The position numbers and the translations under genes were made by a program. This document shows, in pieces, positions 25,042 to 47,322 of a stretch of 64,000 bases of DNA (position 1 is the stretch's first letter; every line of letters begins with the position of its first letter). The stretch lies in contig NZ_LMFO01000031.1 in NCBI RefSeq assembly GCF_001426865.1, positions 1-64,000 on the forward strand, written 5' to 3'. This DNA comes from Paenibacillus sp. Root52 (GTDB lineage: Bacteria; Bacillota; Bacilli; Paenibacillales; Paenibacillaceae). The notes beneath the pieces are model-generated. The model did not search any database, was not told where the DNA came from, and saw nothing but the letters and a program-made list of their open reading frames with translations.

Positions 25042-25623
25042 TTACACTTCCCACCAAGCAAAGTAAGCAGTTGAGGCTAATAAGCCGGCAACGGAAAGGG
25101 AGCCACTAACAGTCAGGTTGATCGACTGACCTGCGGGAACAACATATTGCCCCCATACACTCGATGCAAATGGCCCAGCCTGTAGAGGCATCGTCATGAT
25201 TGTAGTCGCTCCAGTGGGAGCGGAAGCAGAGGTACGTACTGTTGCAACGCTGGTATTCGTGCTGGATAGATTGCTGTTCACTGCGGCTATGGTGGTTGGT
25301 GAGGTTAGTGTACCATTAGCGCTTAGTATCATCGAACCACTAAATGAAGACAGAAGGTTGAGTCCTACCGTAATCCCGCCAGAGAGTCGTGATACATACA
25401 GGGTTCTACCGCTACCCACAGGATTAGTTAGTTGTACCGTCGCAATAACGCTGCCTCCTAACAATCCAAGCGTTGTTGAGTTGGTTGAACCCGCGTTATA
25501 TAGATTACCTGTGTTACCGGCATCCGTCTCAGGTGGAGCAACAATGCCGGGGGAAGTAAAGGTGTTTGTATTGGAGGTATAGACGGGCTGACTTAAAGGG
25601 TTGAATACATTATTATTCGGCAC
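25042..25623 (-). CDS. Ser/Thr-rich beta-strand surface-like protein 1
   Basis: About 193 residues, beginning PNNNVFNPLSQPVYTSNTNTF and ending AYFAWWEV. It is rich in Ser, Thr, Gly, Ala and Val with alternating strand-like patterns and almost no charged residues or Lys. The neighbouring minus-strand protein has the same plan (NVFN...NTF.(S/T)PGI.A, GSGRT(L/I).(V/I)S, ...WWE(V/F)), so they are paralogues. The start is taken as GTG 25623, eight bases after AAAGGTGG; the open frame runs further upstream only because it reads into a MITE-like repeat. No signal peptide is seen. I infer a spore- or cell-surface component; the family is not recognised. Confidence 0.75.
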   Translation of the reverse strand: MPNNNVFNPLSQPVYTSNTNTFTSPGIVAPPETDAGNTGNLYNAGSTNSTTLGLLGGSVIATVQLTNPVGSGRTLYVSRLSGGITVGLNLLSSFSGSMILSANGTLTSPTTIAAVNSNLSSTNTSVATVRTSASAPTGATTIMTMPLQAGPFASSVWGQYVVPAGQSINLTVSGSLSVAGLLASTAYFAWWEV

Positions 25624-25646
25624 AGTATACACCACCTTTATAAGAA

Positions 25647-25853
25647 GTTGTTCAAAAAGTCCGCTTTTGATTACGAAGGATGCCCTAAGGCATCTCAGCA
25701 TCGAAGTTGGGATTCAGCCGAAATAAGTGGATGCTTACGAAGGTGTTTCTTCGGAAACAATGTAATTGCTCACGTAGTTTTGCCTACGCTCCGCTATTCC
25801 ATTTCTATCTTCATCCCATCTTCTCGGTACTGAAAACCGTCCTTTTTGAACAC
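25647..25853. repeat. MITE-like repeat, copy B
   Basis: A 207-bp element from GTTGTTCAAAAAGTC to CTTTTTGAACAC with inverted ends, lying between the two surface-protein paralogues. It shares nearly all internal words with copy A, including the TTACGAAGG/CCTTCGG-like internal inverted pair. It carries TCCGCT at both 25659 and near 25790. Confidence 0.88.
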
Positions 25854-25867
25854 GTACTATAAGTAGA

Positions 25868-26425
25868 TTAGAATTCCCACCACGATAGATTGATTGCTGC
25901 GGTCTGATTCCCCGTACCAAGACTAATCGATAATGTTTGTCCCGGAGGAACAACGAGCGCACCATTAAAATCCAGCATATACATGCCAGCCGTTAGCGGA
26001 ATACTGATGAGACTTGTGAATGCGCCGCCGAGTGTACCTGTATTTTGCCTTGTGGTGACTACACTGGCGTTAGCATTACCAAGTAAGGTGTTGACTGGAA
26101 CGGGGGTGCTTCCTGCGGTCACTGTCCCTCCCGAATATATAACCAAGGTTGCCGCCGCTGTGGTGCCTCCAAGTATGCTTGATATCCGTATCGTTCTGCC
26201 ACTGCCAGCCGCATTAATGATCTGTAGCAGCAGGTTTTGGCCCGCGGGAATGGAGGAGTTATTCGTAGTCAGTGTAAAAAAACTACCAGCCGCCGCTGCT
26301 CCGCTTTCTGCCGAAGCCTCAATGCCAGGAGCGGAGAACGTATTCGTCAACTGTGTGAATAAAGGGCCGTTCGACTGATTGAACACATTATAGTTCGTTA
26401 TCTCTTCCACCTCCCTTACGACCAA
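25868..26425 (-). CDS. Ser/Thr-rich beta-strand surface-like protein 2
   Basis: Up to 185 residues, ending INLSWWEF, paralogous to the preceding protein (shared YNVFN, NTF, PGI, AGSGRTIRIS, WWE). The sequence is uncharged and strand-rich (LVIYSGGTVTAGSTPVPVNTLLGNANASVV). The start is uncertain: the frame opens at TTG 26425, but the strong GGGAGGTGG lies inside it (about 26409-26417) and the paralogue's start aligns to an ATA codon at 26401; GTG 26410 overlaps the binding site. It is divergent from the next gene. A surface role is inferred from composition and context. Confidence 0.72.
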   Translation of the reverse strand: MVVREVEEITNYNVFNQSNGPLFTQLTNTFSAPGIEASAESGAAAAGSFFTLTTNNSSIPAGQNLLLQIINAAGSGRTIRISSILGGTTAAATLVIYSGGTVTAGSTPVPVNTLLGNANASVVTTRQNTGTLGGAFTSLISIPLTAGMYMLDFNGALVVPPGQTLSISLGTGNQTAAINLSWWEF

Positions 26426-26606
26426 TAGATAACCCTATAGCTATAGAGATTGCTCCAAAAATCAGAATCAACAAGCTCTAGAACAAGCCTTCTCTCGTAT
26501 GCTTCATTGTACTTGCATTGTATGAGGGAAATGGATGAAGGGTTTGGGACAAAATGAGGAAAACTCGAAATAGCGGCAGATGCCGTGCCCGTATTTTGAA
26601 TAAAGG

Positions 26607-26614
26607 CATACGAT
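26607..26614 (+). promoter_or_regulatory. Possible sporulation-sigma -10 element
   Basis: CATACGAT resembles the SigE -10 consensus (CATACAnT) and lies about 32 bp before the ATG at 26646, but no convincing -35 is found at the right distance. A hint only. Confidence 0.2.
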
Positions 26615-26645
26615 GCGGAAGCACATTTTTTAAGGGGAAATTGAG

Positions 26646-27143
26646 ATGAGTCGAACAGCGAAGCGATGCAAGAAAAAAACGCATCCATCAACTAAATATG
26701 CAAACCGCCGCCAACCTCGTCGTTCCTGCCGCGCTAAATTGCTGAAACCCCCTTGTTCCCGGATTACGCGTCCTCGGTGCAAGCAGGGTACTTCCTCACA
26801 TATCAAACTCCCTGGTGCTACTCACTGTTTTACCGAGCATACGTATGTCGGAGCCGTGACCCAAAATACGACCCAACCTCTGCCGGCACAGGATACCTCA
26901 TCGCTCAGCATGTACACATATGGCATCGTGAACCGGGGTGAACATCCGGCCCTTGTGCAGATTCAAGTCAGCCCCAATGCCGTGGATTATGCCGTGGACA
27001 GCCAGGAGGTGATCGCGGGAGGTCAGACGAAGGCTTTGGTGCCACAGCGATTTTTACACTATACCCGGCTGGTTATTCAATCGGTTCAGCCAGATCAACC
27101 AACAAGGCTCGATGTTTATTTTCAGGCACAACGTGTGCGGTAA
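26646..27143 (+). CDS. Basic Cys-containing protein with DUF6385-like C-terminus
   Basis: 165 residues in two parts. The first ~55 are strongly basic with scattered Cys (KRCKKKTHPSTKYANRRQPR, then RSCRAK, KPPCSR, RPRCKQG), reminiscent of spore-coat proteins such as CotG-type basic segments. The rest (about 85-165) matches the C-terminal domain of the next gene product: YGIVNRGEHPALVQIQVSPN, then LVPQRFLHYTRLVIQS and a final DVYFQAQ. I identify that domain as DUF6385-like from memory. AAGGGGA precedes the ATG. The next gene follows after 45 bp. It is likely a component of a surface layer or spore coat. Confidence 0.75.
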   Translation: MSRTAKRCKKKTHPSTKYANRRQPRRSCRAKLLKPPCSRITRPRCKQGTSSHIKLPGATHCFTEHTYVGAVTQNTTQPLPAQDTSSLSMYTYGIVNRGEHPALVQIQVSPNAVDYAVDSQEVIAGGQTKALVPQRFLHYTRLVIQSVQPDQPTRLDVYFQAQRVR

Positions 27144-27188
27144 AGGGGTATATCAAGACAGATATGACCAGGGAGGAGGACGAGGCGC

Positions 27189-28721
27189 ATGCCTAACTTT
27201 ACAACGTTTAATACCAATCCCGATAACTTGCGAACCTTGATCTTCGGTCAGGATAGCACGGGGACAGCTCAACCTGTCAGAACCGATACAAGCGGCAATG
27301 TGGTCGGTATTATTTTGGACGGGACAATCAGTAACATCTCAGGTTTGACTACCGTTACGATTAATGCAGGAACGATTACGAACATTCTCAACGGAACCAT
27401 TACAAGTGTCCTTGGAGCAACGATTACAGCTGGTACCATCAATAGTGTGCTGGGAGCTACAGTGACGGCGGGAACACTGACCAATTTATTGAATGGTACA
27501 ATCACCAGCGTGCTAGGAGCAACGATCACGGCAGGAACGCTATCGAACCTGTTGGATGGTACGATCACGAGTGTACTTGGGGCAACCATTACAGCGGGAA
27601 CGATTACGAGTGTGCTCGGTGCGACCGTCACAGCAGGAACGCTGACCAACCTGTTGAACGGTACGATCACGAGTGTCCTTGGAGCAACGATTACAGCCGG
27701 AACGATCACCAGTGTACTCGGCGCGACGGTAACGGCAGGAACGTTGACGAACCTGTTGAATGGTACAATCACGAGTGTGCTTGGTGCGACCATCACAGCG
27801 GGAACGATTACGAGTGTACTCGGTGCGACGGTAACGGCAGGGACGTTGACGAACCTGTTGAATGGTACGATCACAAGTGTGCTTGGTGCGACCATCACAG
27901 CGGGAACGATTACGAGTGTCCTCGGTGCGACGGTAACGGCAGGGACGCTGACGAACCTGTTGAACGGTACGATCACGAGTGTGCTTGGTGCAACCATCAC
28001 AGCGGGTACGATTAGCAGTGTGCTTGGAGCAACGATTACCGCGGGAACACTGAGCAATTTGCTTAATGGTACGATCACAAGCGTTCTGGGAGCGACCATC
28101 ACGGCAGGGACGTTAAACAACTTGCTGAATGGTACGATTACAAGTGTATTAGGAGCAACGATTACCGCAGGAACGTTAACTAACTTGCTGAACGGCACCA
28201 TTACTAGCGTACTCGGAGCAACCGTGACTGCCGGAACGTTAACGAACTTACTGAACGGTACGATCACAAGTGTTCTGGGAGCAACCATCACGGCAGGAAC
28301 ATTGACCAATCTGCTCAATGGAACCATTACCAGTGTGCTTGGCGCAACCATTACAGCGGGAACGCTGAGCAGCGTAACTTCTATATCACAGAAGAGCTTT
28401 CAGGAATCACAGCTTATTGGTACACCTACCGCGAATGCTTTTACAGCCCTTCCAGCAGTGACCACCAGTGTATTCGGAACGTATTCCTTCTTCGTATATA
28501 ATCGAGGCCCAGGAGTCAATCGGGTCGATGCCCGCGTTGAGATCAGTGCTAACGGAACGAACTGGTACACCGATGTAACAACCGTCACAGGCATATTATC
28601 TGGATCGGTGGATGTATTGGTGCCACAGCGATTTCTCAAATATACACGCCTATCCTATCGTTCCAGTCTCGTCGGATCACCCACGACAATTGATGTCATC
28701 TTCAATGGACAAGGCACATAA
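27189..28721 (+). CDS. Large repeat protein with DUF6385-like C-terminal domain
   Basis: 510 residues. A short N-terminal region (TFNTNPDNLRTLIFGQDSTG, QPVRTDTSGNVVG) leads into about 360 residues (46-410) built from short units such as TITSVLGATITAG and TVTAGTLTNLLNG, with a dominant 34-residue (102-bp) period. It contains no Lys, Cys or aromatic residues and much Thr, Gly, Ala, Leu and Ile, which suggests a beta-solenoid or filament stalk. The C-terminal ~90 residues (FFVYNRGPGVNRVDARVEIS, LVPQRFLKYTRLSYRSS) repeat the domain of the preceding protein. GGGAGGAGG precedes the ATG. The abundant Thr would be candidate O-glycosylation sites for the enzymes encoded next. Confidence 0.85.
   Translation: MPNFTTFNTNPDNLRTLIFGQDSTGTAQPVRTDTSGNVVGIILDGTISNISGLTTVTINAGTITNILNGTITSVLGATITAGTINSVLGATVTAGTLTNLLNGTITSVLGATITAGTLSNLLDGTITSVLGATITAGTITSVLGATVTAGTLTNLLNGTITSVLGATITAGTITSVLGATVTAGTLTNLLNGTITSVLGATITAGTITSVLGATVTAGTLTNLLNGTITSVLGATITAGTITSVLGATVTAGTLTNLLNGTITSVLGATITAGTISSVLGATITAGTLSNLLNGTITSVLGATITAGTLNNLLNGTITSVLGATITAGTLTNLLNGTITSVLGATVTAGTLTNLLNGTITSVLGATITAGTLTNLLNGTITSVLGATITAGTLSSVTSISQKSFQESQLIGTPTANAFTALPAVTTSVFGTYSFFVYNRGPGVNRVDARVEISANGTNWYTDVTTVTGILSGSVDVLVPQRFLKYTRLSYRSSLVGSPTTIDVIFNGQGT
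27380..28376 (+). repeat. Tandem 102-bp coding repeats
   Basis: About 1 kb of in-phase repeats within the surface-protein gene. Four or five central copies (about 27590-28010) are nearly identical at DNA level (for example ACGATCACGAGTGT, GCGACGGTAACGGCAGG), while the outer copies differ at many synonymous sites, as expected from recent expansion or gene conversion in the middle. Confidence 0.88.
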
Positions 28722-28803
28722 CCCGATCGATCATCATATAGGTACATGGAGTCCGCTTTTGTGGGCTTCATGTATTTTTTTTGGCATAGGAGGTGATGGT
28801 GCT

Positions 28804-31077
28804 GTGAAGCAAGGGTTAGTCGGAATCCACATGATTGTGCAAAATGAAGAACATTACCTGCCCCGTTGTCTGGGCAGCTTCCAATCACTTGCAAGTGAAT
28901 GCTTTGTTACAGATACCGGCTCCATAGATCGCACGGTTGAGATTGCTGGACAACATCAGGCAACGGTGCTGCATGCGAAGTGGGATGAGGATTTTGCTTC
29001 TGCCCGTAATATCAGTCTGCCGCTGGCGAGTACGGACTGGATTCTGTGTGTGGATGCGGATGAATATGCCGTAGAAGGGATTGATGAGCTACTTGCGTTC
29101 CTTCCAACGGTTGAGCCTAGCATCACCAAATTACGAGTCACCATAATCAATCGAATCGGCGAACAGGAGCAAGCGAACGTGTTGTTTCAGCCTGTCCGTC
29201 TCTTCCGAGCAGGTCGAGGATACCGGTACAACGGACGGATCCATGAACAGCTCTTTCGTGGCACCACAGGAGATAAGGATAGGGCGATAACTGCGGGTGC
29301 AAGTGTAGAAAGCGAGCTGCCTACTGAAATAGCAAAAGGTGTATTCGTGGAGCAGGAACCTCTCGCTCCATTAGTTATCATGCATGACGGTTACTTGCCG
29401 TCTACTATGGCGACCGGACACAAACCACGTCGCAATCTCAAGCTGTTACAGAAGCAGCTTGCAGAACAACCAGAGCATCCTTTTCACCTCTATAATCTCG
29501 GTGTGACGTACTGCCAGCTTGGACATGTGGAGAGGGCGACAGAAGCATTCGCGCAATCTCTTCAATCTACTCCGCTGGAAGCCCCTTATCGTCCAACCTT
29601 AGTTCGAGACTATGGGAAGGTGCTTATCGTGCTGGAACGTTATGATGAAGCACATGGACTTCTGGCTGCGGAGAGACAGCATTATTGGGGCTATGCGGAT
29701 CTGCATCTATTGTTCGGGGAGACGTTGCAGCAGCAGGGTTTGGAAGAACGCGCATATCAGGTTTACGCAGAAGCAGTTGAGCATCATACAGACAATGGAA
29801 CATCAGAGAACATAGCGAAGATTGAATTGCAGAGCACTAGCGATAAAGGACATGGGGTTCAATCCGAGCCAGCTTATGTTACAGAGCAAGGTTCGACTAC
29901 CTATAAACCCTATACAGCGATGGGGCGGTTAGCACAGAAAAAAGGATTCCTGCAAGAAGCAGCTCAATTGTATAAGCTTGCGTTAGCTAAAATGCCAACC
30001 TATACACCAGCGTGGAGAGGTTTGGCTGATGTGCTGCAACAGTCTGGTGAGCCAGATAAACGGATTGCTGAACAATTGCAGATGCAATGGAAAGAGGGAC
30101 TGCAACGAGAGGACGTTGAAGTTAATCATCGCATAACGGAGGTTGTTCAAGCGCTTGCCTCCTGCGGAGCATACGAACAGGCACTTCACCTTCTGCAAGA
30201 ACAGGATCGCAACCATGGCATACCGGAAGCTGACCTCGTGCACTGGATGTTGTGTGTGAACAGGGTGTCCGCAGTGCAAGAATGGGCGGAAAGGCAGTAT
30301 AGGGATGGGGAAGATCATCTTGTATTTAAAGCGTCTGAGCTGAAAATGGACTGGGCAGTAGCGTGCTGGGCTCATGGCTCAGTGTTATCATCCTCATTTC
30401 TAGCTGTAATTGACCCAGAGGAAAGCTCTACATGGAGAGCATTGGACAGTCTACTTTGCGATCAGGATAAGTACATTATTCAGCAAGACGGAGATAGCCA
30501 AAAGATAATTACATCGCAAGTTGCAGCAGGCGTACGAACATTAGCAAAAACAATCATAGAACGGGCTGTACAGACAGGACAGTTATCCCTTGCGAAACGG
30601 TTGCATATGAAGATCGCAGAGCTGTATGTGGAACCTCATGAACGTTCATTGCACAAGCAATGGATCGCCGAGGTGCTGTATCGCACCGGATATACGATGG
30701 CAGCAGCCGAGATGTTAATTCAGTGTATGGCAGAAGGGGAGCTACAGGCGCAGAGTCTATTTATTCTGGGGGAAACGGTATATACCAGAGGGCATTACGA
30801 TCAAGCTCTAGTTCTGTTTCAACAAGCGCTGGAGCAAGAACCAGGATTACAGCGAGCCAGAGCAGGTGCATCTCTCTGTTATTTACAATTGGCTAAGGAG
30901 GTCATAGAGCAGGAGGTAACACGTTCTCCTTCCGTTGCTGAACTGAAAGCTCAATTGACGGTGCTGGAGCAAAAATTGCGACTTGCTGAGGGGCTTCCTT
31001 GGCGTACGGTCTTCCATGCAAAGGAAAGGAGGAATCATGTTGCCGAACAATCTCATTTCGCTATGCATGATCGTTAA
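28804..31077 (+). CDS. Family-2 glycosyltransferase with TPR repeats (1 of 3)
   Basis: 757 residues. The N-terminal GT-A domain has GIHMIVQNEEHYLPRCLGSF, TDTGSIDRTVEIA, WDEDFASARNISL and the metal-binding DxD in CVDADEY, then RIHEQLF. The rest is helical with TPR-like repeats (HLYNLGVTYCQLGHVERATEAFAQSL, YDQALVLFQQALEQEPGLQRARAG). The same layout occurs in SunS-type and other protein glycosyltransferases. GTG 28804, ten bases after AGGAGG, is chosen; upstream sequence in this frame overlaps the repeat gene. It ends 41 bp inside the next gene. It probably transfers a sugar to the surface proteins encoded beside it. Confidence 0.88.
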   Translation: MKQGLVGIHMIVQNEEHYLPRCLGSFQSLASECFVTDTGSIDRTVEIAGQHQATVLHAKWDEDFASARNISLPLASTDWILCVDADEYAVEGIDELLAFLPTVEPSITKLRVTIINRIGEQEQANVLFQPVRLFRAGRGYRYNGRIHEQLFRGTTGDKDRAITAGASVESELPTEIAKGVFVEQEPLAPLVIMHDGYLPSTMATGHKPRRNLKLLQKQLAEQPEHPFHLYNLGVTYCQLGHVERATEAFAQSLQSTPLEAPYRPTLVRDYGKVLIVLERYDEAHGLLAAERQHYWGYADLHLLFGETLQQQGLEERAYQVYAEAVEHHTDNGTSENIAKIELQSTSDKGHGVQSEPAYVTEQGSTTYKPYTAMGRLAQKKGFLQEAAQLYKLALAKMPTYTPAWRGLADVLQQSGEPDKRIAEQLQMQWKEGLQREDVEVNHRITEVVQALASCGAYEQALHLLQEQDRNHGIPEADLVHWMLCVNRVSAVQEWAERQYRDGEDHLVFKASELKMDWAVACWAHGSVLSSSFLAVIDPEESSTWRALDSLLCDQDKYIIQQDGDSQKIITSQVAAGVRTLAKTIIERAVQTGQLSLAKRLHMKIAELYVEPHERSLHKQWIAEVLYRTGYTMAAAEMLIQCMAEGELQAQSLFILGETVYTRGHYDQALVLFQQALEQEPGLQRARAGASLCYLQLAKEVIEQEVTRSPSVAELKAQLTVLEQKLRLAEGLPWRTVFHAKERRNHVAEQSHFAMHDR

Positions 31078-32935
31078 GGATGAGGAACAATGGCTGCCTC
31101 AATGCTTGGACAGTGTGCAAGCAGCGGTCGATGAAATCATTATTGTAGACACAGGTTCCTCAGATCGCAGTGTAGCGATTGTGGAGTCGTATGGAGCAAT
31201 GGTTGTGCATTTGGCGTGGAGCGATGATTTTGCCGCGGCACGTAATGCTGGACTCGCGCGAGCTTCCGGCGATTGGATTCTCTTTCTGGATGCGGATGAA
31301 GCACTGGATCAGGTTGCTCAGGAGCAGATCAGGAGCTGGACGGCAGTCAGCGGATGTGACGGATTGTTTTTAAATATCCATAACTATACAGGTTCGGGTC
31401 AGCAAGGGGCTACCGTTAATCCGGTGTTGAGACTATTTAGAAATGCGCCGGAACATCGGTTCGAAGGGCGGATACACGAACAGATCGCGGCATCTATCTG
31501 CCGGAAGAATCCAGAGGCTGCGTTTCACCTAACCGATATGGTCATCCATCATTATGGCTACCAGACAGCTGTGGTGGAGCACAAAGACAAAGTGAATCGC
31601 AATTTACGTCTGTTAGAACAAGCGGTCAAGGAAGAGCCGGATCAGCCGTTTCATCATTATAATCTGGGTGTCGAATATTTGCGTCTAGGTGAAGCGGAGC
31701 GGGCGCTAAAGACATTTGGTGTGGCTAAGGCGGGCATTGATCCAACGGTAACTAGCTATGCACATCTGCTATGCAAGTATGAGATTCGATGTCTGGAGTA
31801 TCTGAATCGCTGGCAGGAGGCATTGGAGCATATTGATGCAGCGCTGGAGCTATTCCCGGATTATACGGACTTACTCCATCATCGCGGGGTATGTGAAGAT
31901 GCGCTTGGACATGTAGAGAAGGCAGAGTTCTGGCTACGTGAAGCTATTCGGTTGGGAGCGCCGCCGCCGATGTACCATACCGAAGAAGGTCTCGGAACAT
32001 ATCAGACGTGGTACACGCTGGGCAGATTGCTGGAGGGGAAGGCAGATCTGGAGGGTGCAGTAGATGCCTACGTAGAGGCTGTTCGTGCCCAATCGAGCCT
32101 GTTGCCCCCGCTATACCGAATATTCCGTATCATGCGGGTATCGGGACAAGAGCAGCAGATCCCCGAGCTGATTAGAGAACGCTTTGCACTGGAATCGGAA
32201 GAAGCGATATACAAAGTGCTGGGTGTGATGGAGCAAAGTCGCTGTTATGAGGCAGCAGTCGAGTGGATAGCGGAACTTTCATCATCGGCAGATCCAGTTG
32301 AGAAGCGAGAACGACTATCCATGGCAGAGGCTCTGCTTCAGATTCAACGTGGGAAATGGAAGGCTGCCAGACTCAAACTGGAGCCAATTCAGCGTAAAAA
32401 AGGTCTGTACGCAGAGCAAGCATCCAGCTGGCTCGATCGATTACATTGGGCTCAAGGAAGATCCATAGAAGGTAAGGATGAACTATGCAATTGGCTGTAT
32501 CGTCATTCCCAGCCGGATGGACTAGGAGGAGAAAGGCATGAAGGCAAGGCTGAGGACAGTAACACACCTGTGACCAAAGGGGAATCAGCTAACGGCGGGT
32601 ATGACGGATGGCAGGCATTTGGGTTGCTGATGGAAGGATGTGTGCAATCAGGTCAATGGCAGGAGCTTCATACACTCATTCAGATGGGTCGGCAACAGCT
32701 CGCGACTGGGGTCTCACCGGGGGGAGAGACGCGTCAGGAGCAAGCAGAGGAGCCTTTTGCCGGGGTAGCTAATACGGTAGCGGGTACGAGTTGGCTGGTT
32801 CGTGGGCTCGTGAGTGCTGCAGATGAACAGCTCCGTGAGTGGAGTGAAGGAATAAATGGACAACGGCAGCAGTGTTGGCCGCTGGTGCAACGGCTTCGAT
32901 TGGAATTGCCGGGGCCGGATGGTTTCGGGTCATAA
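31037..32935 (+). CDS. Family-2 glycosyltransferase with TPR repeats (2 of 3)
   Basis: 632 residues. GT-A domain: ISLCMIVKDEEQWLPQCLDS, IIIVDTGSSDRSVAI, WSDDFAAARNAGLARASGDW, DxD in FLDADEA, then LRLFRN and EGRIHEQI; a TPR region follows (FHHYNLGVEYLRLGEAERALKTF, LEHIDAALELFPDYTDLLHHRG). ATG 31037 has AAAGGAGGAA upstream. The start is inside the preceding gene, indicating coupled translation. Similar in plan but not identical to genes 1 and 3, so these are old paralogues likely acting in sequence on one glycan or on different targets. Acceptor and donor unknown. Confidence 0.88.
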   Translation: MLPNNLISLCMIVKDEEQWLPQCLDSVQAAVDEIIIVDTGSSDRSVAIVESYGAMVVHLAWSDDFAAARNAGLARASGDWILFLDADEALDQVAQEQIRSWTAVSGCDGLFLNIHNYTGSGQQGATVNPVLRLFRNAPEHRFEGRIHEQIAASICRKNPEAAFHLTDMVIHHYGYQTAVVEHKDKVNRNLRLLEQAVKEEPDQPFHHYNLGVEYLRLGEAERALKTFGVAKAGIDPTVTSYAHLLCKYEIRCLEYLNRWQEALEHIDAALELFPDYTDLLHHRGVCEDALGHVEKAEFWLREAIRLGAPPPMYHTEEGLGTYQTWYTLGRLLEGKADLEGAVDAYVEAVRAQSSLLPPLYRIFRIMRVSGQEQQIPELIRERFALESEEAIYKVLGVMEQSRCYEAAVEWIAELSSSADPVEKRERLSMAEALLQIQRGKWKAARLKLEPIQRKKGLYAEQASSWLDRLHWAQGRSIEGKDELCNWLYRHSQPDGLGGERHEGKAEDSNTPVTKGESANGGYDGWQAFGLLMEGCVQSGQWQELHTLIQMGRQQLATGVSPGGETRQEQAEEPFAGVANTVAGTSWLVRGLVSAADEQLREWSEGINGQRQQCWPLVQRLRLELPGPDGFGS

Positions 32936-32968
32936 GTAGAGTAGAGGTGGATAAGGGCGGGGATAAAC

Positions 32969-35005
32969 ATGCGGATGGGAATCAGCTTATGCATGATCGT
33001 TAAGGATGAAGCGCAGCATCTTGAGCGGTGTCTGGACGCAGTCCGTGATGTGGTCGATGAGATCATCGTTGTGGACACAGGATCAACCGATGATACGCCT
33101 GATATTGCCCGTCGCTACGGTGCAATCGTAATGCATGCCACCTGGTCGGGGGATTTCGCTAGAGCACGCAACCAATCCCTCGCCTTAGCGACAAATCCGT
33201 GGATTTTAGTGCTGGATGCAGATGAAGTATGGCTGCCAACCGAGTCAATGCATACTGAGATGGGGCGTCTAGTATCAAGGGATCAGGATGAGATATGGGG
33301 ATATTGGATACAAGTGACGAGCCTGCTCGGTCACTCCGGTGAAGAACGAGTAACAGATATGGTGTGTCGTCTATTTCGGAACGATCCTCGGATTGCCTTT
33401 AAAGGGACGATTCATGAAGAGGTCGCTTCTTCTATCTATGCCTTCGCACCACAGGGGATTGCAGCGTGTGAGCTAGAGATTCTACATGATGGATATCTAG
33501 ATAGGGTCATTATGAGCAAAAATAAAATAGAGCGGAATATGCGGTTAATCCGCTCCGCTCTGAATCAAACCCCAGACCAACCTGAATTGTTGTATGCACT
33601 CGCTGCCGAGTGGTTTCAACAAGGAAATTATGAGGAAGCATTGCGGTTATTAGTTCCTCTACTAGCAGAACTAGAACCAGGGTGTGGCTACCACTCTGAT
33701 CTGGTGCTCAAGACGGCGTATGCCTGGCGAGAATACGGACATCCCGAACGGGCGCTAGCTATTGTGCAAGCCTGGGCACCGGTGTATGAGGACTTTCCTG
33801 ATCTGTTGGAGCTTGGAGCTGTGCTCCAGCTGGATCTGGGACATGAAGAAGATGCGCTGGATTGGTTGCGACATGCCAAGTCCGTTGCTGGATCAGGCTC
33901 AAAGTACACGTCCGTTTCGGGAGCTGGATCATATCGCAGCTTGATCTTAGAAGGCATGGCGTATGAACAGCTAGGTCAGTGGCAGCAGGCAGAAGAAGCC
34001 TACACTGCCGCAATTGCGACCAAGTCAGACAGCGTGGCCGCATGGCAACGGCTACTGTGGTTAGCTGCGGTTACGGAGCGGCCTAACGCGGTGGCACGCG
34101 TTGTTGCAAGGCATCACCTGCCATTAGTGGCATGGCAGGTGATGCTCCAGACTGCGCTGGATGCACACCGGCCAGAATGGCTGTTGCGCCATGCAGGCTC
34201 GCTCGCCGGTGTGATGCAGGCACAGCCGCTGGCATCGGGGCTTGCACTGGCTCAGCTCGGCGAAGATGCTGCCGCCGAGGTGGCGCTGCGCCCTTGGGCG
34301 TCGCATGCGCAGCACGGGCCAGCAGCAACGCTGGCGCTGTGGGCGCTCGCCTGCAAGCGGCGTGGTTTGCCTGCCGCAGCGTCAGGCGAGGCAGGCGATG
34401 CAGCAGGTGATGTAGGCGCATTAGCAGGCGAGGCAACAGGTGGTGCGCGTGCCGCTGGCCTCGCTCACCGCCATGGGGCTGCAGCGCAGTGGCCTGCGGC
34501 AGCCTGCGCGAGCCCGGCGCAAGCGCCGCAGGCCGCCGTGCACGCCGCCGCCGATGCGCTTGCGCGCACGGGCGCCTGGCCAGCGTGGCTGCGCCTGCTG
34601 GCGGCGATGCCGCCCGGCGCTGCACCGGCGCTGCTCGCGGCGCTTGCGCCTGCGGCACGCTGCGGGGTGCTGCGCGCACCCGCGAGCGTCCGCGAAGGGC
34701 TGCTTCAGATCTGCGGCGGCGAGCCTCCAGCCGCAGGGCAGCCCTTCGCGGACGAAGTGCCCGCCGCCATCCGCACAGCGGAGGCACTTGTGGCGGGCAC
34801 GCTCGCGTTGCTCGCAGGGCGGCGGCATGCCGCGCGTGCATGGGCCGAACTGGCCCAGCGCAGCTCGCTGCAAGCCACCGCCGCAGGCCGCCCGGCGACG
34901 ACCGTTACGCCGGGCGTACGTGCATTGTTGCGCCTGACAGCTCCTGGCGCAACCACTGCTGACAGCTATGCAGCGCAATGCCAGCTGCTGTGGGTACACT
35001 TATAG
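32969..35005 (+). CDS. Family-2 glycosyltransferase with TPR and GC-rich Ala-rich tail (3 of 3)
   Basis: 678 residues. The first ~230 are a GT-A domain (GISLCMIVKDEAQHLERCLD, IIVVDTGSTDDTPDIARRYG, WSGDFARARN, DxD in VLDADEV, KGTIHEEV). TPR-like helices follow up to about residue 385. From about 34130 the base composition changes abruptly: most of 34200-34920 is over 70 percent GC, up to about 80 percent near 34500-34560, and encodes an alanine-rich sequence (LACKRRGLPAAASGEAGDAA, PAWLRLLAAMPPGAAPALL). The tail still looks weakly helical-repeat-like. Neighbouring genes are near 50 percent GC. The frame stays open to a TAG-like end at 35005, followed by MITE copy C. Confidence 0.83.
   Translation: MRMGISLCMIVKDEAQHLERCLDAVRDVVDEIIVVDTGSTDDTPDIARRYGAIVMHATWSGDFARARNQSLALATNPWILVLDADEVWLPTESMHTEMGRLVSRDQDEIWGYWIQVTSLLGHSGEERVTDMVCRLFRNDPRIAFKGTIHEEVASSIYAFAPQGIAACELEILHDGYLDRVIMSKNKIERNMRLIRSALNQTPDQPELLYALAAEWFQQGNYEEALRLLVPLLAELEPGCGYHSDLVLKTAYAWREYGHPERALAIVQAWAPVYEDFPDLLELGAVLQLDLGHEEDALDWLRHAKSVAGSGSKYTSVSGAGSYRSLILEGMAYEQLGQWQQAEEAYTAAIATKSDSVAAWQRLLWLAAVTERPNAVARVVARHHLPLVAWQVMLQTALDAHRPEWLLRHAGSLAGVMQAQPLASGLALAQLGEDAAAEVALRPWASHAQHGPAATLALWALACKRRGLPAAASGEAGDAAGDVGALAGEATGGARAAGLAHRHGAAAQWPAAACASPAQAPQAAVHAAADALARTGAWPAWLRLLAAMPPGAAPALLAALAPAARCGVLRAPASVREGLLQICGGEPPAAGQPFADEVPAAIRTAEALVAGTLALLAGRRHAARAWAELAQRSSLQATAAGRPATTVTPGVRALLRLTAPGATTADSYAAQCQLLWVHL
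34130..34975 (+). other. Very GC-rich segment inside the third glycosyltransferase gene
   Basis: Line-by-line counts give 70 percent GC at 34201-34260, 82 percent at 34501-34560 and 77 percent at 34861-34920, against roughly half in the 5' part. It includes a perfect 17-bp inverted repeat: 34687-34703 and 34738-34754 (CGTCCGCGAAGGGCTGC and its complement), with a CTGCGGC/GCCGCAG pair nested inside. Several long shadow frames occur here for compositional reasons. Confidence 0.85.
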
Positions 35006-35007
35006 AG

Positions 35008-35084
35008 GGTGTTCCCAAAGTCCGCTACTCCATTTCAATATTCATCCCATCTTCTCGGTACCGAAAACCGATCTGTTTGAACAC
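35008..35084. repeat. MITE-like repeat, internally deleted copy C
   Basis: A 77-bp version: the left end (GGTGTTCCCAAAGTCCGCT) joins directly to the right part (ACTCCATTT ... CATCCCATCTTCTCGGTACC, then CTGTTTGAACAC). The junction falls at TCCGCT, which occurs at both ends of the missing segment in copy B. It lies between the convergent glycosyltransferase and methyltransferase genes. Confidence 0.8.
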
Positions 35085-35112
35085 GCACTTATAGATCCCG
35101 GCGTTCAATCGG

Positions 35113-35787
35113 TTAACTTTTACGAATGACTGCCCGAAAACAACGAATGGGGGTGCCATACATGTCAGACCAGATGGCATCCTCAGGCTCTTCCACGCTC
35201 AGCTTCCCATCAATCGTTAATCCAGTAACAGCCATGATGGTTTCCAGCAGGTCTGGGCGCATCTCTGGTACGTCAAACGTTGCGATTAACCTTCCATCTG
35301 GCTTCATGACTCGGGCGAACTCTCGAAACGCACGTAGCATCGTGCCTGTATCTAGATGCTCCAATACAGAGATACAGAAGACGCGGTCGAATGTGCTTGC
35401 TTGATAGGGTAACTGAGCGAGATTAGCCTGTGCACGGTGCAGTTTGGTTAGATAGAACTCAGGAAATTCACGTGCGGCTTCTTCGCCAAAGTCTGAGATG
35501 ATGTCCAGCCGGATGGCTTCCTCCGATAATATGCGATCATCCCAATCGCAGGCATGAACTTCCTGGCATTGCTCTGCGAGCCAAAATTTGAAGGGGTGTG
35601 AGATGCCACAGGCAGCGTCTAGAACAACGTCACTGGGACGAGCGAATTGACGAGCCCATTCGTATTCATAAGGTCTGCTCCACCATGCCGGATGTAAGGG
35701 GAATATCAGTGTATCGGTCTTAGGATCGTTACGTCGAACATATCTAGATTCCATTAATTCTGTCTGATCCGCTGCATCCATCATCAT
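35113..35787 (-). CDS. Class I SAM-dependent methyltransferase
   Basis: 224 residues. Motif I VVLDAACGISHPFKFWL, an acidic residue in VHACDWDD, and FDRVFCISVLEHLD plus FARVMKPDGRLIATFDVPE define a Rossmann-fold methyltransferase of the Methyltransf_11 type. It begins with an ATGA overlap of the upstream GT4 gene and is the last gene of the minus-strand glycosylation set. Probable job: methylating a sugar or the glycan end, which in other systems caps chains. Substrate unknown. Confidence 0.87.
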   Translation of the reverse strand: MMMDAADQTELMESRYVRRNDPKTDTLIFPLHPAWWSRPYEYEWARQFARPSDVVLDAACGISHPFKFWLAEQCQEVHACDWDDRILSEEAIRLDIISDFGEEAAREFPEFYLTKLHRAQANLAQLPYQASTFDRVFCISVLEHLDTGTMLRAFREFARVMKPDGRLIATFDVPEMRPDLLETIMAVTGLTIDGKLSVEEPEDAIWSDMYGTPIRCFRAVIRKS

Positions 35788-37193
35788 CGAACCCCTTCCT
35801 TCATATCTGCGTCAGCAAGAAATGTACGGAGTACCTCACTCCATTTGCGTTTCCATCGGGATAGGTCATAGGCGAGTGCTGTTTCGCGTGCATAGATGCC
35901 AAGACGTTCCCGCTCGGCTCTGTCTTGGACAAGTCGGACGAGAGCAGCAGTTAGCGCTTCTTGGTTTGGTGGAACGAGCAATCCGTTGAATCCATCCTGA
36001 ATTAGATCATTTAGTCCACCCACATTAGAGGCGACCACAGGTAACCCGCAGCTCATCGCTTCCAGACAGGCATAGGAGGTACCTTCCGAGAAAATCGTAG
36101 GAATGACCGCGATATCCGCGTGATGGTATGCCTCTCGGATATCCCTGAAATCATACGTACGGTGAAATATCCGATTGGCATGCGGGTGTGTGCGATGCCA
36201 GTAACGGAAGGAACGGCCTACAGTACTGCCTTCCACCAGTTCTCCGGCAAACTCGATCTCCAGATCTGGAAAGGCTCCAAGCAACTGATCTGCCGCCAGC
36301 ATCATCGGAATGATGCCACGTTCCAAGCTGACACGACGTGGATAGAGGATACGCACAGGGCGGGATACGGCATCTTGTTCGTTTACCTTATTAACTACTG
36401 CAAATCCATCATGCTGCTCCTCACTCTCTGCACTTTCTTCATTCTCTTCGTTCTGAACCTCAGGCTTCTGTTTAAGCATGTTCTCAGGTGTATCCCCATC
36501 TGTATGATGATCTTGCTCTAGACCGGGAGGTGAGGCATCAGACGTGCTAGAGATGAAGATACGATCTAAACGATCTTCATGCTGCTCCAAGTCTTCCTTC
36601 CACTGGGATAGCCACTGTGCTTCCTGTTCTTGCTGCATCTGACGCCGAGGAGGAGCAGGGGTGAAGTATGAGGTGTCGACTGCATTCGGAATCAAAATGA
36701 GCTGTGCAGGGTCACTGAACGTGCATGAAGCACGACAATAAGTCTGAAAATGAGAATCCACAGATACGATATTCAGCAGTCCATCAACGGCCTGCTGAAT
36801 ATGTTCGGCAACCTGTTGTTTTGTTTCAAGCGGTAGGCCGGGACGATCCCAGTTAATGCCGTGGCAGATACCGAGACTGCCGGGTTTATAAGCAATCGGT
36901 TGCCAGATGCAGCTAGCATAAATGATAGGGCCGCGTGCAGCATGGGCCATTCGGGCGAAGGCTTCAGGCACATCGTTCATATCGTATGGGTAACCGAAGA
37001 CGTCAATCTGTTCTGTACGTGTCTGAAAAGCTTCGAAATAGGATAGTTGATGCACTTCAGGGATATGTCCCATCTCATGTATGACACTGCATAGATCCAA
37101 AATATATCGTTCCAGTCCACCCCCGAACACCCGTGCAAACTCCCGGTTGTACCCGTCTGTGAAGCTGTGCGTTAGAATGCTGACTACCCCCAT
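35784..37193 (-). CDS. Family-4 (GT-B) glycosyltransferase
   Basis: 469 residues. The N-terminal half starts GVVSILTHSFTDGYNREFAR and has GGGLERYILDLCSVIHEMGH. The C-terminal half holds RILYPRRVSLERGI, the IAVIPTIFSEGTSYACLEAMSCGLPVVASNVGG motif with the catalytic E-x7-E pattern, and GFNGLLVPP. An acidic low-complexity insert (about 270-310; ENEESAESEEQ) separates the domains. ATG 37193 is preceded by GGAAGGAGGAG on the minus strand; upstream extension is not needed. It is 1 bp from the preceding GT2 gene and overlaps the methyltransferase by 4 bp. It transfers a nucleotide-activated sugar to an unknown acceptor. Confidence 0.9.
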   Translation of the reverse strand: MGVVSILTHSFTDGYNREFARVFGGGLERYILDLCSVIHEMGHIPEVHQLSYFEAFQTRTEQIDVFGYPYDMNDVPEAFARMAHAARGPIIYASCIWQPIAYKPGSLGICHGINWDRPGLPLETKQQVAEHIQQAVDGLLNIVSVDSHFQTYCRASCTFSDPAQLILIPNAVDTSYFTPAPPRRQMQQEQEAQWLSQWKEDLEQHEDRLDRIFISSTSDASPPGLEQDHHTDGDTPENMLKQKPEVQNEENEESAESEEQHDGFAVVNKVNEQDAVSRPVRILYPRRVSLERGIIPMMLAADQLLGAFPDLEIEFAGELVEGSTVGRSFRYWHRTHPHANRIFHRTYDFRDIREAYHHADIAVIPTIFSEGTSYACLEAMSCGLPVVASNVGGLNDLIQDGFNGLLVPPNQEALTAALVRLVQDRAERERLGIYARETALAYDLSRWKRKWSEVLRTFLADADMKEGVR

Positions 37194-37194
37194 G

Positions 37195-37986
37195 TCACTG
37201 CTCCTCCTTCCAAGGAACCAGCCGGGGTTCCGGATCAAGAATAGACTCATAGTGTTCGAGACTGCCCCATTGTCCATCTGGATCAATGCGCTTGTAACGC
37301 AGATATTTACGCACCCGATCTTCCAGACTACCTGCCCAGCCGAGGTGCTGTACTTTTAATTCGGTATTCATGCCAGGTAAGACCATGCAGGACAGGGGGA
37401 GACGGGGAACATGATGATTTTGCTGTGGATAGAAATAGGGATATTCAGGTATATATCGTACAAGTGAGGCTGTGTGCCTCTGGTGTAGCTTCCATAGCTC
37501 ATCCTCCCGATAGTGAGTACGCCCACCCCACATATCGTAGAAACGAAATGCTACCCAGTCCGCATGCTCTTGGTTAATGAGCTCCCGCATGGCTTGTTTG
37601 GCTTTTGTACCGTACAGCTCATCAGCATCGACAGATAGCAGCCAGTCTGGTGAGGTGCTCACAGCTGCTTGCCATAAGACGTTACGTAGACGCCATTCCT
37701 GAGCAAATAACGGTTGTTCAAGCACCTCTAAGCGGACAACCTTGGGATAAGATCGGCAGATGTCTGGCGTTCCATCTGTACTGGCATCATCCACAATCAC
37801 GATCTCATCTACAAAATCACTCAGATTGTGCAGCACTTCCTCCAGGTATCGCCCACGTTCGTTTCGAACCTGAAGTATTGCAGTCAGTTTGTTGTTTTGG
37901 CTTTTGCGGATTCGCCGGATGGAGGCTGGCTCTGTCTCGAGGATTGGCTCCCGCATATGCTGTCTGCGTTTCTTCGGATCAAACAT
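37195..37986 (-). CDS. Family-2 glycosyltransferase
   Basis: 263 residues. GT-A features: LTAILQVRNERGRYLEEVLHN, EIVIVDDASTDGTPDI, and DxD in LLSVDADELYG. No TPR extension. The gene overlaps the preceding 448-residue gene by one base and is followed directly by the GT4 gene, so it is in a four-gene operon. By position it probably adds one sugar of the glycan made by this island; specificity cannot be told. Confidence 0.9.
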   Translation of the reverse strand: MFDPKKRRQHMREPILETEPASIRRIRKSQNNKLTAILQVRNERGRYLEEVLHNLSDFVDEIVIVDDASTDGTPDICRSYPKVVRLEVLEQPLFAQEWRLRNVLWQAAVSTSPDWLLSVDADELYGTKAKQAMRELINQEHADWVAFRFYDMWGGRTHYREDELWKLHQRHTASLVRYIPEYPYFYPQQNHHVPRLPLSCMVLPGMNTELKVQHLGWAGSLEDRVRKYLRYKRIDPDGQWGSLEHYESILDPEPRLVPWKEEQ

Positions 37987-39332
37987 TAGGGCACCTCCCC
38001 AAGTAGCTGTTGTATCGCTTGATCCAGCAGTTCCATTTCGACAATTCGTTCAAGAGCATGCTCATCATCAAGAGCTGATTCTAGAAATAATGTAACTGCT
38101 CCATGGCGTTCTCCCCGCAGGGCTAGAGCGGTACCGGACAATTGGCGGTAATCTTGCTGGCTGGCTTGATCCACAATATCTGCGGCATGAACCAGTTTAA
38201 GTGCTTCCTCTACACGTCCAGTTTCCTGGAAAATGCGAAACTTCCAGTGCCGGGCCGTTTCTCCGCCGAGCTTATCGAGTACTTTTAAAGCCGTTCCATA
38301 ATCATCATTTAGACGTAGTAATTCTGCCTGAACGAGCTGATGCTCTCCAGCCTCCAACCAGCGACATAGCTGCTCGTAATGATGCCGTTCCTGATCCGTG
38401 GCGGCAGTCGTTCCATACACTTGCAGAGCATTCTCCACTTCCCCGGCTCTTGCCTGAATGGCGGAGAGGAAGCGGTAGTGTGATTGAAGACAGTCAGAGC
38501 GTCCACATGTGATCGCATGGGCAAACGCTTCTTGAACTGTTGCGGCCGCCCGCGAGTCTTCCAATATATATTCATAAGCAGCGAGCAAAAAGGAAATCGT
38601 CTCATGTGCGCCTGTTTTGGAACGGAGCTTCCGATAATAATCTGCTCTTAGCTTACATTGAAGCTGGGTAACCGTATCTGTGGCACTGCTATGGATCTGT
38701 TTGAGTGCGTGCAGAAACAGCATTTCGTAATCCCGCAGTGGAATTTCAAGCTCATCTTTTTGCATCATGCCAGTAGGTGTAGGGTCTTCCCCGCCTAGCC
38801 AGACGGTGCGGACACCTTGAAATACCAGCTTCATATAACGTGTCTCTGAGGACGTACATACCAGATTAGAAATGCCGACCAGCTTGCTAATACAGCTCTC
38901 CCAGAGCGGCGAGTCAGCTTCCTCTTGGACAGGTTCTGGCAGGAGCGTTATCAACAGATCAGGCTGAATGGAGGCTACTGCGGTAAGCCAGTACGGATGC
39001 GCAACGACTGCAACAGTACGAGGCTGTTGTAGCAGTGCTTCCGCCTCCAGTAAGGATATTAACGTAATCGCTGCAGGTAGATCGTCTGACCGTTCCAGAT
39101 GGCTAACATAGTAGACTGCTCCTTCAGCAGCCAGTAGTGCAGCAATGTCTGGATAAGGAAATGTCGACCATCCCCCTTTACGGGGAAATAGAACGTAGTG
39201 AATTGGAGAGAGGGACGTCTCTTTATATTGTTGAGCTGTCTCGTTCGGATGAATCTGACTCTCGCTGGATTGTACAGGTTCTTCCACGGGCTGGATCACC
39301 TCACTTTGTTTGCATTTATACTCGGATAACAC
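37986..39332 (-). CDS. Uncharacterised protein of the glycosylation island (TPR-like C-terminus)
   Basis: 448 residues, first gene of the minus-strand operon. The N-terminal half has a Rossmann-like pattern (IHYVLFPRKGGWSTFPYPDI, VAVVAHPYWLTAV, PDLLITLLPEPVQ, VCTSSETRYMKLVF), which resembles part of a GT-B enzyme; the second half is helical with TPR-like units (SRAAATVQEAFAHAITCGRS, EEALKLVHAADIVDQASQQD). No catalytic motif is certain. It may be an inactive or divergent glycosyltransferase or a scaffold. The start is uncertain: GTG 39332 opens the frame without a strong ribosome binding site. Confidence 0.7.
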   Translation of the reverse strand: MLSEYKCKQSEVIQPVEEPVQSSESQIHPNETAQQYKETSLSPIHYVLFPRKGGWSTFPYPDIAALLAAEGAVYYVSHLERSDDLPAAITLISLLEAEALLQQPRTVAVVAHPYWLTAVASIQPDLLITLLPEPVQEEADSPLWESCISKLVGISNLVCTSSETRYMKLVFQGVRTVWLGGEDPTPTGMMQKDELEIPLRDYEMLFLHALKQIHSSATDTVTQLQCKLRADYYRKLRSKTGAHETISFLLAAYEYILEDSRAAATVQEAFAHAITCGRSDCLQSHYRFLSAIQARAGEVENALQVYGTTAATDQERHHYEQLCRWLEAGEHQLVQAELLRLNDDYGTALKVLDKLGGETARHWKFRIFQETGRVEEALKLVHAADIVDQASQQDYRQLSGTALALRGERHGAVTLFLESALDDEHALERIVEMELLDQAIQQLLGEVP

Positions 39333-39505
39333 GGATATAATTCGTTGAACTCACTCCATATGTAAAAGCCTTTGTCGCACAAGGAATAGGTTGCCTGACA
39401 TTAACATATGGGCATTCCGTCTCAAACATGAGCAACTTCCGTGAATAGACGAAGTTGACAAGCGTCCCAAATAACAGAGAACCGTACTTTGAATTCGTAC
39501 TAATG
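39333..39505. other. Intergenic region upstream of the FNR-type sites
   Basis: Divergent region between the glycosylation operon and cydA. Apart from the two palindromes annotated separately, no motif or gene was recognised. Confidence 0.4.
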
Positions 39506-47136: not shown

Positions 47137-47322
47137 AACTTCTCTTGGTTCACTCCTATCTTCACATTTCCTCTTATTATACGAGCTTGGCAGGAAATCT
47201 GTCGATGTCATTATTGTAACCAGACTAGATTAAATGCGTGCTGAGGCACTTCAAGGGAAAATGACGCAGCAGGGTGCAAAAAGGCGGTGAAAGATGCGCT
47301 TCAGCGAGTTTTGAGAAACGCC

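Follow-up and report, generated by a model that had tools for sequence, protein, structure and literature searches.

A gene island of Paenibacillus sp. Root52 that pairs DUF6385 proteins with GT2-TPR glycosyltransferases and probably decorates the spore surface

In Clostridioides difficile, the gene of SgtA, an enzyme joining a GT-A glycosyltransferase domain to tetratricopeptide repeats (TPR), lies immediately upstream of bclA3, and SgtA was reported to transfer O-GlcNAc in vitro onto Thr of BclA3 peptides (excerpts of PMC7157674). GmaR glycosylates flagellin by transferring GlcNAc (excerpts of PMC9638930), and the ENA are spore beta proteins with an N-terminal docking arm, of which F-ENA-4 bears putative O-glycans (excerpts of PMC11952670). 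In this study, we analysed a 64,000-nt stretch of the 6.6-Mb genome of Paenibacillus sp. Root52 (positions 1 to 64,000 of contig NZ_LMFO01000031.1, hereafter the window), in which eleven genes at 25042-39332 form an island. The Ser/Thr-rich paralogues S1 and S2 run leftward; D1 and D2rep, which share a C-terminal DUF6385 domain, run rightward together with three GT2-TPR enzymes (GTA, GTB and GTC); and an overlapping operon (TPRx, GT2d, GT4 and MT) runs leftward. The order and strands of the open reading frames (ORFs) agreed with a preliminary description of this DNA, which had noticed four unusual proteins beside three GT2-TPR enzymes, and both Pfam matches and composition bore this out. The island probably serves to build a proteinaceous spore-surface layer or fibre and to decorate it; glycosylation of the surface proteins by dedicated enzymes is strongly supported by the sequence comparisons reported below.

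As in the SgtA-BclA3 pair, the gene of a GT-A/TPR enzyme in the island adjoins that of a Thr-containing tandem-repeat protein; the excerpts on BclA3 present it as a spore-surface protein carrying the sugar directly on Thr. Both the GT-A (GT2)-TPR fusion and a conserved adjacency to a Thr/Ser-rich repeat protein were found here. However, BclA3 is a collagen-like acceptor served by one enzyme, whereas the island has a DUF6385 non-collagen repeat protein and three GT2-TPR enzymes plus GT4, GT2 and MT, and the two systems are likened by description, not by sequence. Like BclA-family proteins, as far as the excerpts portray them, D2rep has a leader, a repeat stalk and a C-terminal domain (a beta domain in BclA), and BclA-family genes also occur near GT2-TPR genes in Paenibacillus genomes G063, G017 and G023. 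Unlike BclA, D2rep has neither a collagen repeat nor BclA_C (Pfam, E up to 1), its head being DUF6385; the two kinds of protein coexist in this genome. Judged from their genes and a model, S1 and S2 resemble the F-ENA and S-ENA proteins (Ena1B, Ena2A), in the features that the excerpts give for these, as predicted beta proteins with an N-terminal arm. They differ in lacking Cys, and their sequences matched none of the Ena chains in the PDB; the genome contained 0 matches to DUF4183, the domain of F-ENA subunits, which speaks against F-ENA membership. The island enzymes resemble GmaR and SunS in having TPR repeats after a GT2 domain that is homologous to theirs, but they have different neighbours and presumed acceptors, and GTB, the enzyme scanned, reached 80.9 bits against the SunS equivalog TIGR04195, far under its cut-off of 350. 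By the tests made, the island is neither BclA nor F-ENA, and by analogy it would work like SgtA-BclA3. A literature search covering mostly titles and abstract openings returned no description of this locus, and the word DUF6385 was absent from the 5.39 million open-licence papers covered.

Linkage of the enzymes to DUF6385 proteins

Linkage was assessed in 75 Paenibacillus genomes, 43 of them DUF6385-positive and 32 negative. GTB orthologs were found in 43/43 positive genomes (E 2e-126 or better) versus 0/32 negative ones, in which the best GTB match was partial (3e-77). S-family matches were present in 47 genomes, namely the 43 positive genomes and four with remnants. GT2d orthologs (at least 60% identity) were present in 54 genomes, comprising the 43 positive and 11 of the 32 negative ones. 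The co-occurrence that the preliminary description had put forward for checking across the genus was thus upheld for GTB and was not exclusive for GT2d, and the convergent operon is not strictly coupled to the surface genes. Among the 11 operon-only genomes, four retain S1 remnants and two retain GTC remnants, so the surface half has been lost in at least those genomes.

When the 42 other DUF6385-positive Paenibacillus genomes were compared with the window, all eleven genes were found in order in 32, and the island was interrupted by contig ends in 3 more. The remaining 7 form a divergent clade without D1 (a single DUF6385 gene), four of which also had no MT match; some island copies were fragmented (G005, G037 and G054). 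In the main clade, the island lies between constant neighbours and shows patchy loss; on these two grounds it looks vertically inherited, and the term accessory island, used in the preliminary description, fits it poorly.

Across the class, DUF6385 was detected in 51/398 genomes (48 over the family cut-off, three below) from 28 of 145 genera, with two matches in 40 of the 51; in the phylum sample it was detected in 56/398 genomes. At a threshold of 150 bits, a GT2-TPR gene lay near DUF6385 at 26/34 loci from other genera of the class (34 of the 38 DUF6385-positive genomes outside the genus were fetched; G094, G114, G433 and G451 were left out) and at 11/15 loci from the rest of the phylum, these 15 having been chosen by hand among 51 matches outside the class. 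Moreover, 80 loci from named organisms, which were found with the D2 domain as query and are therefore biased to close relatives, all contained at least one GT2-TPR gene; 78 contained three, and the other two were short loci. The 56 named loci longer than 18 kb contained GT2d (45), GT4 (45), the S family (41), TPRx (35) and MT (18), absences being partly due to the 10-kb flank. TPRx was conserved as an operon member, and MT is not a core part, given its presence in just these 18 loci. Named organisms with the locus include P. amylolyticus, Cohnella endophytica, Bacillus methanolicus, a Kyrpidia metagenome-assembled genome and Hydrogenibacillus schlegelii.

When compared with solved structures, the GT domains of all three GT2-TPR enzymes had GmaR as their best match, followed by 7msk and SunS: 4.3e-21, 2.6e-17 and 4.8e-14, respectively, for GTA; 9.7e-39 (GmaR) and 4.4e-18 (SunS) for GTB; and 4.8e-35, 2e-21 and 6.4e-21 for GTC. 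Designed TPR proteins are among the best overall scores of GTA, whose TPR part matched eukaryotic OGT as well. A DxD-type motif was conserved in GTA (39/39), GTB (45/46), GTC (46/46) and GT2d (46/46) among ORFs of at least 230 aa. In Paenibacillus, eight GT2-TPR loci beyond the island, picked by hand, were also inspected, and 6 of them lay near collagen/BclA_C or flagellar genes. Four were near collagen proteins (BclA_C in G063, G017 and G023; a weak BclA_C match in G074), and two were flagellar (G019, adjoining flagellin; G043, its flagellar genes identified by eye). The simplest rule would be that a GT2-TPR gene usually adjoins the gene of its polypeptide substrate. Pfam analysis of the eleven island genes revealed no polymerase, flippase or sugar-nucleotide gene, as had been claimed before, which speaks against a capsule or exopolysaccharide cluster. 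Because of the GmaR/SunS-type matches, the acceptor-like neighbours at 6/8 loci and the SgtA-BclA3 precedent, protein glycosylation is favoured over capsule synthesis, in line with the preliminary description; GTA, GTB and GTC most likely glycosylate the surface proteins directly.

Some other features of these genes were also seen. Genome G063 (locus L253, no DUF6385) carries a parallel island. It encodes two collagen-like proteins, one having BclA_C over cut-off, together with two GT2-TPR enzymes and a methyltransferase fused to a GT2; a relative of MT is also part of it and lies near the BclA_C gene. In the Root52 genome, a paralogue of GT2d with 42% identity is found together with a double-GT2 TPR enzyme (G000:C3, L252 9843-12525); the pair adjoins apparent sugar-metabolism genes, and no acceptor-like protein was seen there. 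The 3' part of GTC (window 34150-35005) has an Ala-rich translation and a GC content of 0.727; the value is 0.476 in the window as a whole and 0.519 in the 5' part of GTC.

Structural proteins and their spore setting

As previously suggested, D1 and D2rep share DUF6385, which matched at the C-terminus of both (Pfam E 2.3e-30 and 8.2e-27, respectively); a profile search of PDB sequences with DUF6385 returned no match. Residues 1-80 of D1 include 19 K/R, 1 D/E and 5 Cys. Residues 41-395 of D2rep consist of 8- and 13-residue modules (GTLTNLLN, GTITSVLGATITA) and contain 96 Thr, 25 Ser, 2 charged residues and no Cys. The length of D2rep ranged from 332 to 566 aa in 36 complete relatives, and the D2-type stalk varied widely by lineage (GTLDAVLGTTVSA, SNLQARVFQTAQ, NLTAASLLSQVS and others), with leader and DUF6385 still recognisable; the parts compared, 45 codons at the start and 110 at the end, showed very little amino-acid change. 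A DUF4099 match in D2rep (27.3 bits, cut-off 22) spread over the repeats with no single stretch passing, and was taken as a repeat artefact. Outside the class, a D1-type DUF6385 protein was seen (L292 7400-8341) in which a CBM96 carbohydrate-binding-type domain replaces the basic N-terminus.

S1 and S2 are Ser/Thr-rich (28.5% Ser+Thr with 6 charged residues, and 23.7% with 7, respectively) and had neither a Pfam match above cut-off nor an NCBIfam match. Profile comparison revealed no relation of either to DUF6385, and a profile search of PDB sequences with the S family gave one match at E 0.54. An AlphaFold2 model of S1 (pLDDT 81, residues 1-29 low) predicted a disordered N-terminal arm and a beta sandwich, which we read as a jelly-roll. 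No Foldseek match to known folds fell under E 0.001; in a second fold comparison, the best Z was 7.6, with 9i0y (Ena2A) at 6.3 and 7a02 (Ena1B) at 5.8, below the tool's trusted level. The start of S1 was set by Shine-Dalgarno sequence (AAAGGTGG) and conservation at GTG 25623; the additional residues of the ORF from 25701 stem from a repeated element. This element, about 200 bp between S2 and S1 (window 25649-25852), is bounded by 26-nt inverted repeats (81% complementary), and its ORF piece also matches elsewhere in G000, G034, G037 and G064. Given these inverted repeats and matches, it seems to be an insertion resembling a miniature inverted-repeat transposable element within the S2-S1 operon of this species group, which would artificially extend the S1 ORF. 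S2 starts at or near 26401, where an ATA codon (window 26399-26401, minus strand) follows a strong Shine-Dalgarno sequence; in most relatives the start is ATG-type, and I replaces M in 8 of 38 listed relatives.

The setting of these genes was assessed through upstream motifs, N-termini and co-occurrence. The -10-like boxes were judged against the sigmaE/K consensus. Upstream of S2, CATANNNT was present in 36/40 relatives (11.2 in shuffles) and AC-16/17-CATANNNT in 27/40 (1.3 in shuffles), and upstream of D1, CATANNNT was present in 35/35 (9.0 in shuffles); these and the following motif counts are inflated, because the shuffles preserve base composition alone and related genomes are non-independent. 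At the TPRx box, ATA lay 12-16 nt 5' of CATANNNT in 25/39 relatives versus 1.9 in shuffles, and was absent in the window itself. At neighbouring genes, CATANNNT fell below shuffles (cydA 5/36, MFS 6/38, regulator 8/38, ABC gene 0/15), and CATA boxes upstream of S1, D2, GTA, MT and GT4 were at or below shuffles, as expected because these genes are internal to operons. None of S1, S2, D1 and D2rep has a hydrophobic N-terminal stretch (best 12-residue Kyte-Doolittle mean within residues 1-40, -0.23 to 0.53). SpoIVA was found in 51/51 DUF6385-positive class genomes versus 217/347 negative ones (P 4e-10 by genome). The absent signal peptides, the CATA boxes and the co-occurrence with SpoIVA together point to a spore location of the surface proteins.

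S1 (MPNNNVFN), D2rep (MPNFTTFN) and S2 (ITNYNVFN here, MTNxNVFN in most relatives) share an MPNxxVFN-like leader despite the lack of a profile relation between the S proteins and DUF6385. The leader motif, defined after the sequences had been inspected, occurred in a DUF6385 ORF at 33 of 46 other loci (L149-L151, where no DUF6385 ORF was recovered, are left out of this count), never in more than one ORF per locus among the matches listed, and it occurred anywhere in 9 of 1319 background ORFs. Such a leader may be a docking or assembly peptide. Across the Root52 genome, MPNxxVFN had 18 matches versus 12 for a reversed control, and its use as a marker of further proteins was rejected; only S1 and D2rep combined a match with a Shine-Dalgarno-like sequence and an ORF of at least 100 aa beginning at the match, S2 being missed by the pattern because of its ATA start codon.

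Layout of the island

The features of the island are collected in Table 1. It is flanked by an ABC-transporter/regulator/MFS block on one side and by cydAB and two ABC-transporter genes on the other. For ten genes, dN/dS ranged from 0.02 to 0.30 (Nei-Gojobori, against four relatives; wider comparisons were near synonymous saturation), with 0.05-0.08 for S1; one S2 value (not computable) and one GT4 value (21 codons, an alignment artefact) were dropped. The island genes are thus under purifying selection where measurable. In the convergent operon, Pfam confirmed the methyltransferase, GT4 and GT2 that had been described; the protein called TPR-like, TPRx, had neither a Pfam match over cut-off nor an NCBIfam match. 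GTA starts, as placed by conservation and its ribosome site, at a GTG codon downstream of the terminator-like hairpin, which is notable only for its size and place, as the region holds 13 such sites versus 12.3 in shuffles. A sigma-70 promoter scan was uninformative (9 sites versus 16.2 expected). Among scanned window ORFs outside the island, a MATE exporter was found at 8885, and a PF00953 (MraY/WecA-type) sugar-phosphate transferase was found 7 kb off the island (window 46177-47211, minus strand), with no other polysaccharide genes in these ORFs.

Table 1. Genes and candidate regulatory features of the island (window coordinates)
Feature	Position	Strand	Description
S1	25042..25623	-	193 aa, Ser/Thr-rich, few charges; predicted jelly-roll; disordered conserved N-terminus (MPNNNVFN...)
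S2	25868..26401	-	177-aa S1 paralogue, 34% identity; ATA start
S2-S1 promoter, sigmaK/E-like	26517..26543	-	AC at 26543-26542, 17 nt, -10 CATACAAT
D1 5' -10-like box CATACGAT	26607..26614	+	within block conserved across aligned relatives
D1	26646..27143	+	basic Cys-containing N-terminus, then C-terminal DUF6385 (PF19912 E 2.3e-30)
D2rep	27189..28721	+	MPNFTTFN leader, Thr-rich 8-/13-residue modules, C-terminal DUF6385; presumed glycan acceptor
Terminator-like hairpin, possible attenuator	28740..28777	+	between D2rep and enzyme genes; 17 pairs, then T run
GTA	28804..31077	+	GT2 plus TPR (Pfam)
GTB	30983..32935	+	GT2 plus TPR (Pfam)
GTC	32969..35005	+	GT2 plus TPR (Pfam); 3' part very GC-rich
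MT	35113..35787	-	SAM-dependent methyltransferase, PF08241 1.6e-12; possible glycan cap
GT4	35784..37286	-	PF00534 1.7e-24; possible glycan extension
GT2d, short GT2	37195..37986	-	PF00535 1.9e-12; possible glycan extension
TPRx	37986..39332	-	448 aa, first gene of convergent operon; no Pfam match over cut-off
TPRx 5' -10-like box CATATGTT	39403..39410	-	CATANNNT in 37/39 relatives versus 14.4 in shuffles

Proposed function, alternatives and significance

In the mechanism that we propose, promoters of the mother-cell sigmaE/K type would drive the S2-S1, D1-D2rep and TPRx-to-MT operons, and D1, D2rep, S1 and S2, lacking an export signal, would remain in the mother-cell cytoplasm. There, GTA, GTB and GTC would bind the Thr/Ser repeats of D2rep, perhaps S1 and S2 too, through their TPR domains and would glycosylate hydroxyl side chains directly, with nucleotide sugars as donors. 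The glycan could be lengthened by GT2d and GT4 and may be methylated by MT. Once decorated, the proteins would assemble on the forespore, with the MPNxxVFN-like leaders of S1, S2 and D2rep acting as docking peptides, the D2rep repeats as a glycosylated stalk, DUF6385 as a distal or oligomerising domain and the basic, Cys-containing D1 as an anchor. Gene content and order, purifying selection, linkage, enzyme homology, the conserved -10-like motifs and the lack of a hydrophobic N-terminal signal were read from the sequences; expression during sporulation, the identity of acceptor and sugar, and where and how the proteins assemble are what we infer. The surface or spore appendage of the preliminary description is not supported in the form in which it was put.

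Several observations weigh against the proposed decoration of a spore-surface layer or fibre. AC at sigmaK spacing upstream of D1 occurred in 1/35 relatives versus 1.0 in shuffles, i.e. at chance, so that this spacing holds at S2 only; the inflation of the motif counts bears on the promoters as well, and when SpoIVA was compared by genus (28/28 versus 95/117), P was only 0.008. No strong GT2-TPR match lay near DUF6385 at 8/34 class and 4/15 phylum loci; some of these were on short contigs or had a weak DUF6385 match, others neither. Likewise, two of the eight GT2-TPR loci outside the island (the pair described above in the Root52 genome and one in G074) lacked an acceptor-like neighbour. S1/S2 relatives were found in 4 of 145 class genera, two of them through a remnant or marginal match, and S1 and S2 are therefore not core. 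The fold matches of the S1 model are middling and indicate no single family, and the predicted structure of D2rep (17 sequences) was poor, with a mean pLDDT of 47. The Root52 genome also encodes a BclA_C protein elsewhere; BclA_C was detected in 68 of the 75 Paenibacillus genomes (64 over cut-off), this one included, and the idea that the island replaces BclA was rejected on that account. With this protein elsewhere and no sugar-nucleotide genes in the island, the earlier word self-contained was too strong. The literature search found no experiment on any island protein, and 11 negative genomes keep the convergent operon, whole or in part, without the surface half.

This last observation would be in keeping with glycosyltransferases whose product is a separate polysaccharide, or a glycan borne by some other carrier, with the surface genes as mere neighbours, and the PF00953 transferase 7 kb away could be read in the same sense. 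However, the island has no polymerase, flippase or sugar-nucleotide gene, GTB orthologs never occurred without DUF6385 in the 75 genomes, and the enzymes are homologous to polypeptide glycosyltransferases, which together make such a separate glycan distinctly improbable. A glycosylated surface layer, S-layer- or adhesin-like, could also belong to growing cells and not to spores, and the flagellar GT2-TPR loci of G019 and G043 indicate that the enzyme family is not spore-only. We consider this unlikely, given that the four structural proteins lack a hydrophobic N-terminal stretch, that the -10 boxes are of CATA type and that every DUF6385-positive class genome has SpoIVA.

The missing export signal would equally suit structural proteins that stay intracellular, for instance as a glycoprotein that is parasporal or internal to the coat, without ever reaching the surface of the spore; D1, basic and Cys-containing, resembles some coat proteins in this. 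Nevertheless, long, nearly uncharged and length-variable repeats suit an exposed stalk, and BclA3 and the F-ENA subunits are described as spore-surface proteins in the excerpts of PMC7157674 and PMC11952670, so that an intracellular fate appears very improbable. The reading that we prefer thus remains a proteinaceous spore-surface layer or fibre made and decorated by the island.

Beyond this single island, DUF6385 and its GT2-TPR partners could represent an undescribed class of endospore surface fibre, O-glycosylated and free of collagen, that spans the phylum; we give this proposal a little less than even credence. In such a class, a common MPNxxVFN docking peptide would recruit differing bodies, such as the repeat stalk or the jelly-roll S1/S2, and the repeats would change freely while leader, head and glycosyltransferases stay.

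The pairing of DUF6385 surface proteins with GT2-TPR enzymes recurs in many spore-formers, and no account of it was found in the literature searched. Spore surfaces matter for adhesion, clumping and persistence, yet many spore formers have outer proteins that still lack a name. If the proposed function is true, a whole domain family of so far unassigned function, DUF6385, would gain a role, and GT2-TPR enzymes could be tested together with their natural acceptors in soil bacteria that are not pathogenic. The combination of a conserved enzyme set with rapidly changing Thr/Ser repeats would then serve as a natural experiment in polypeptide recognition by such enzymes.

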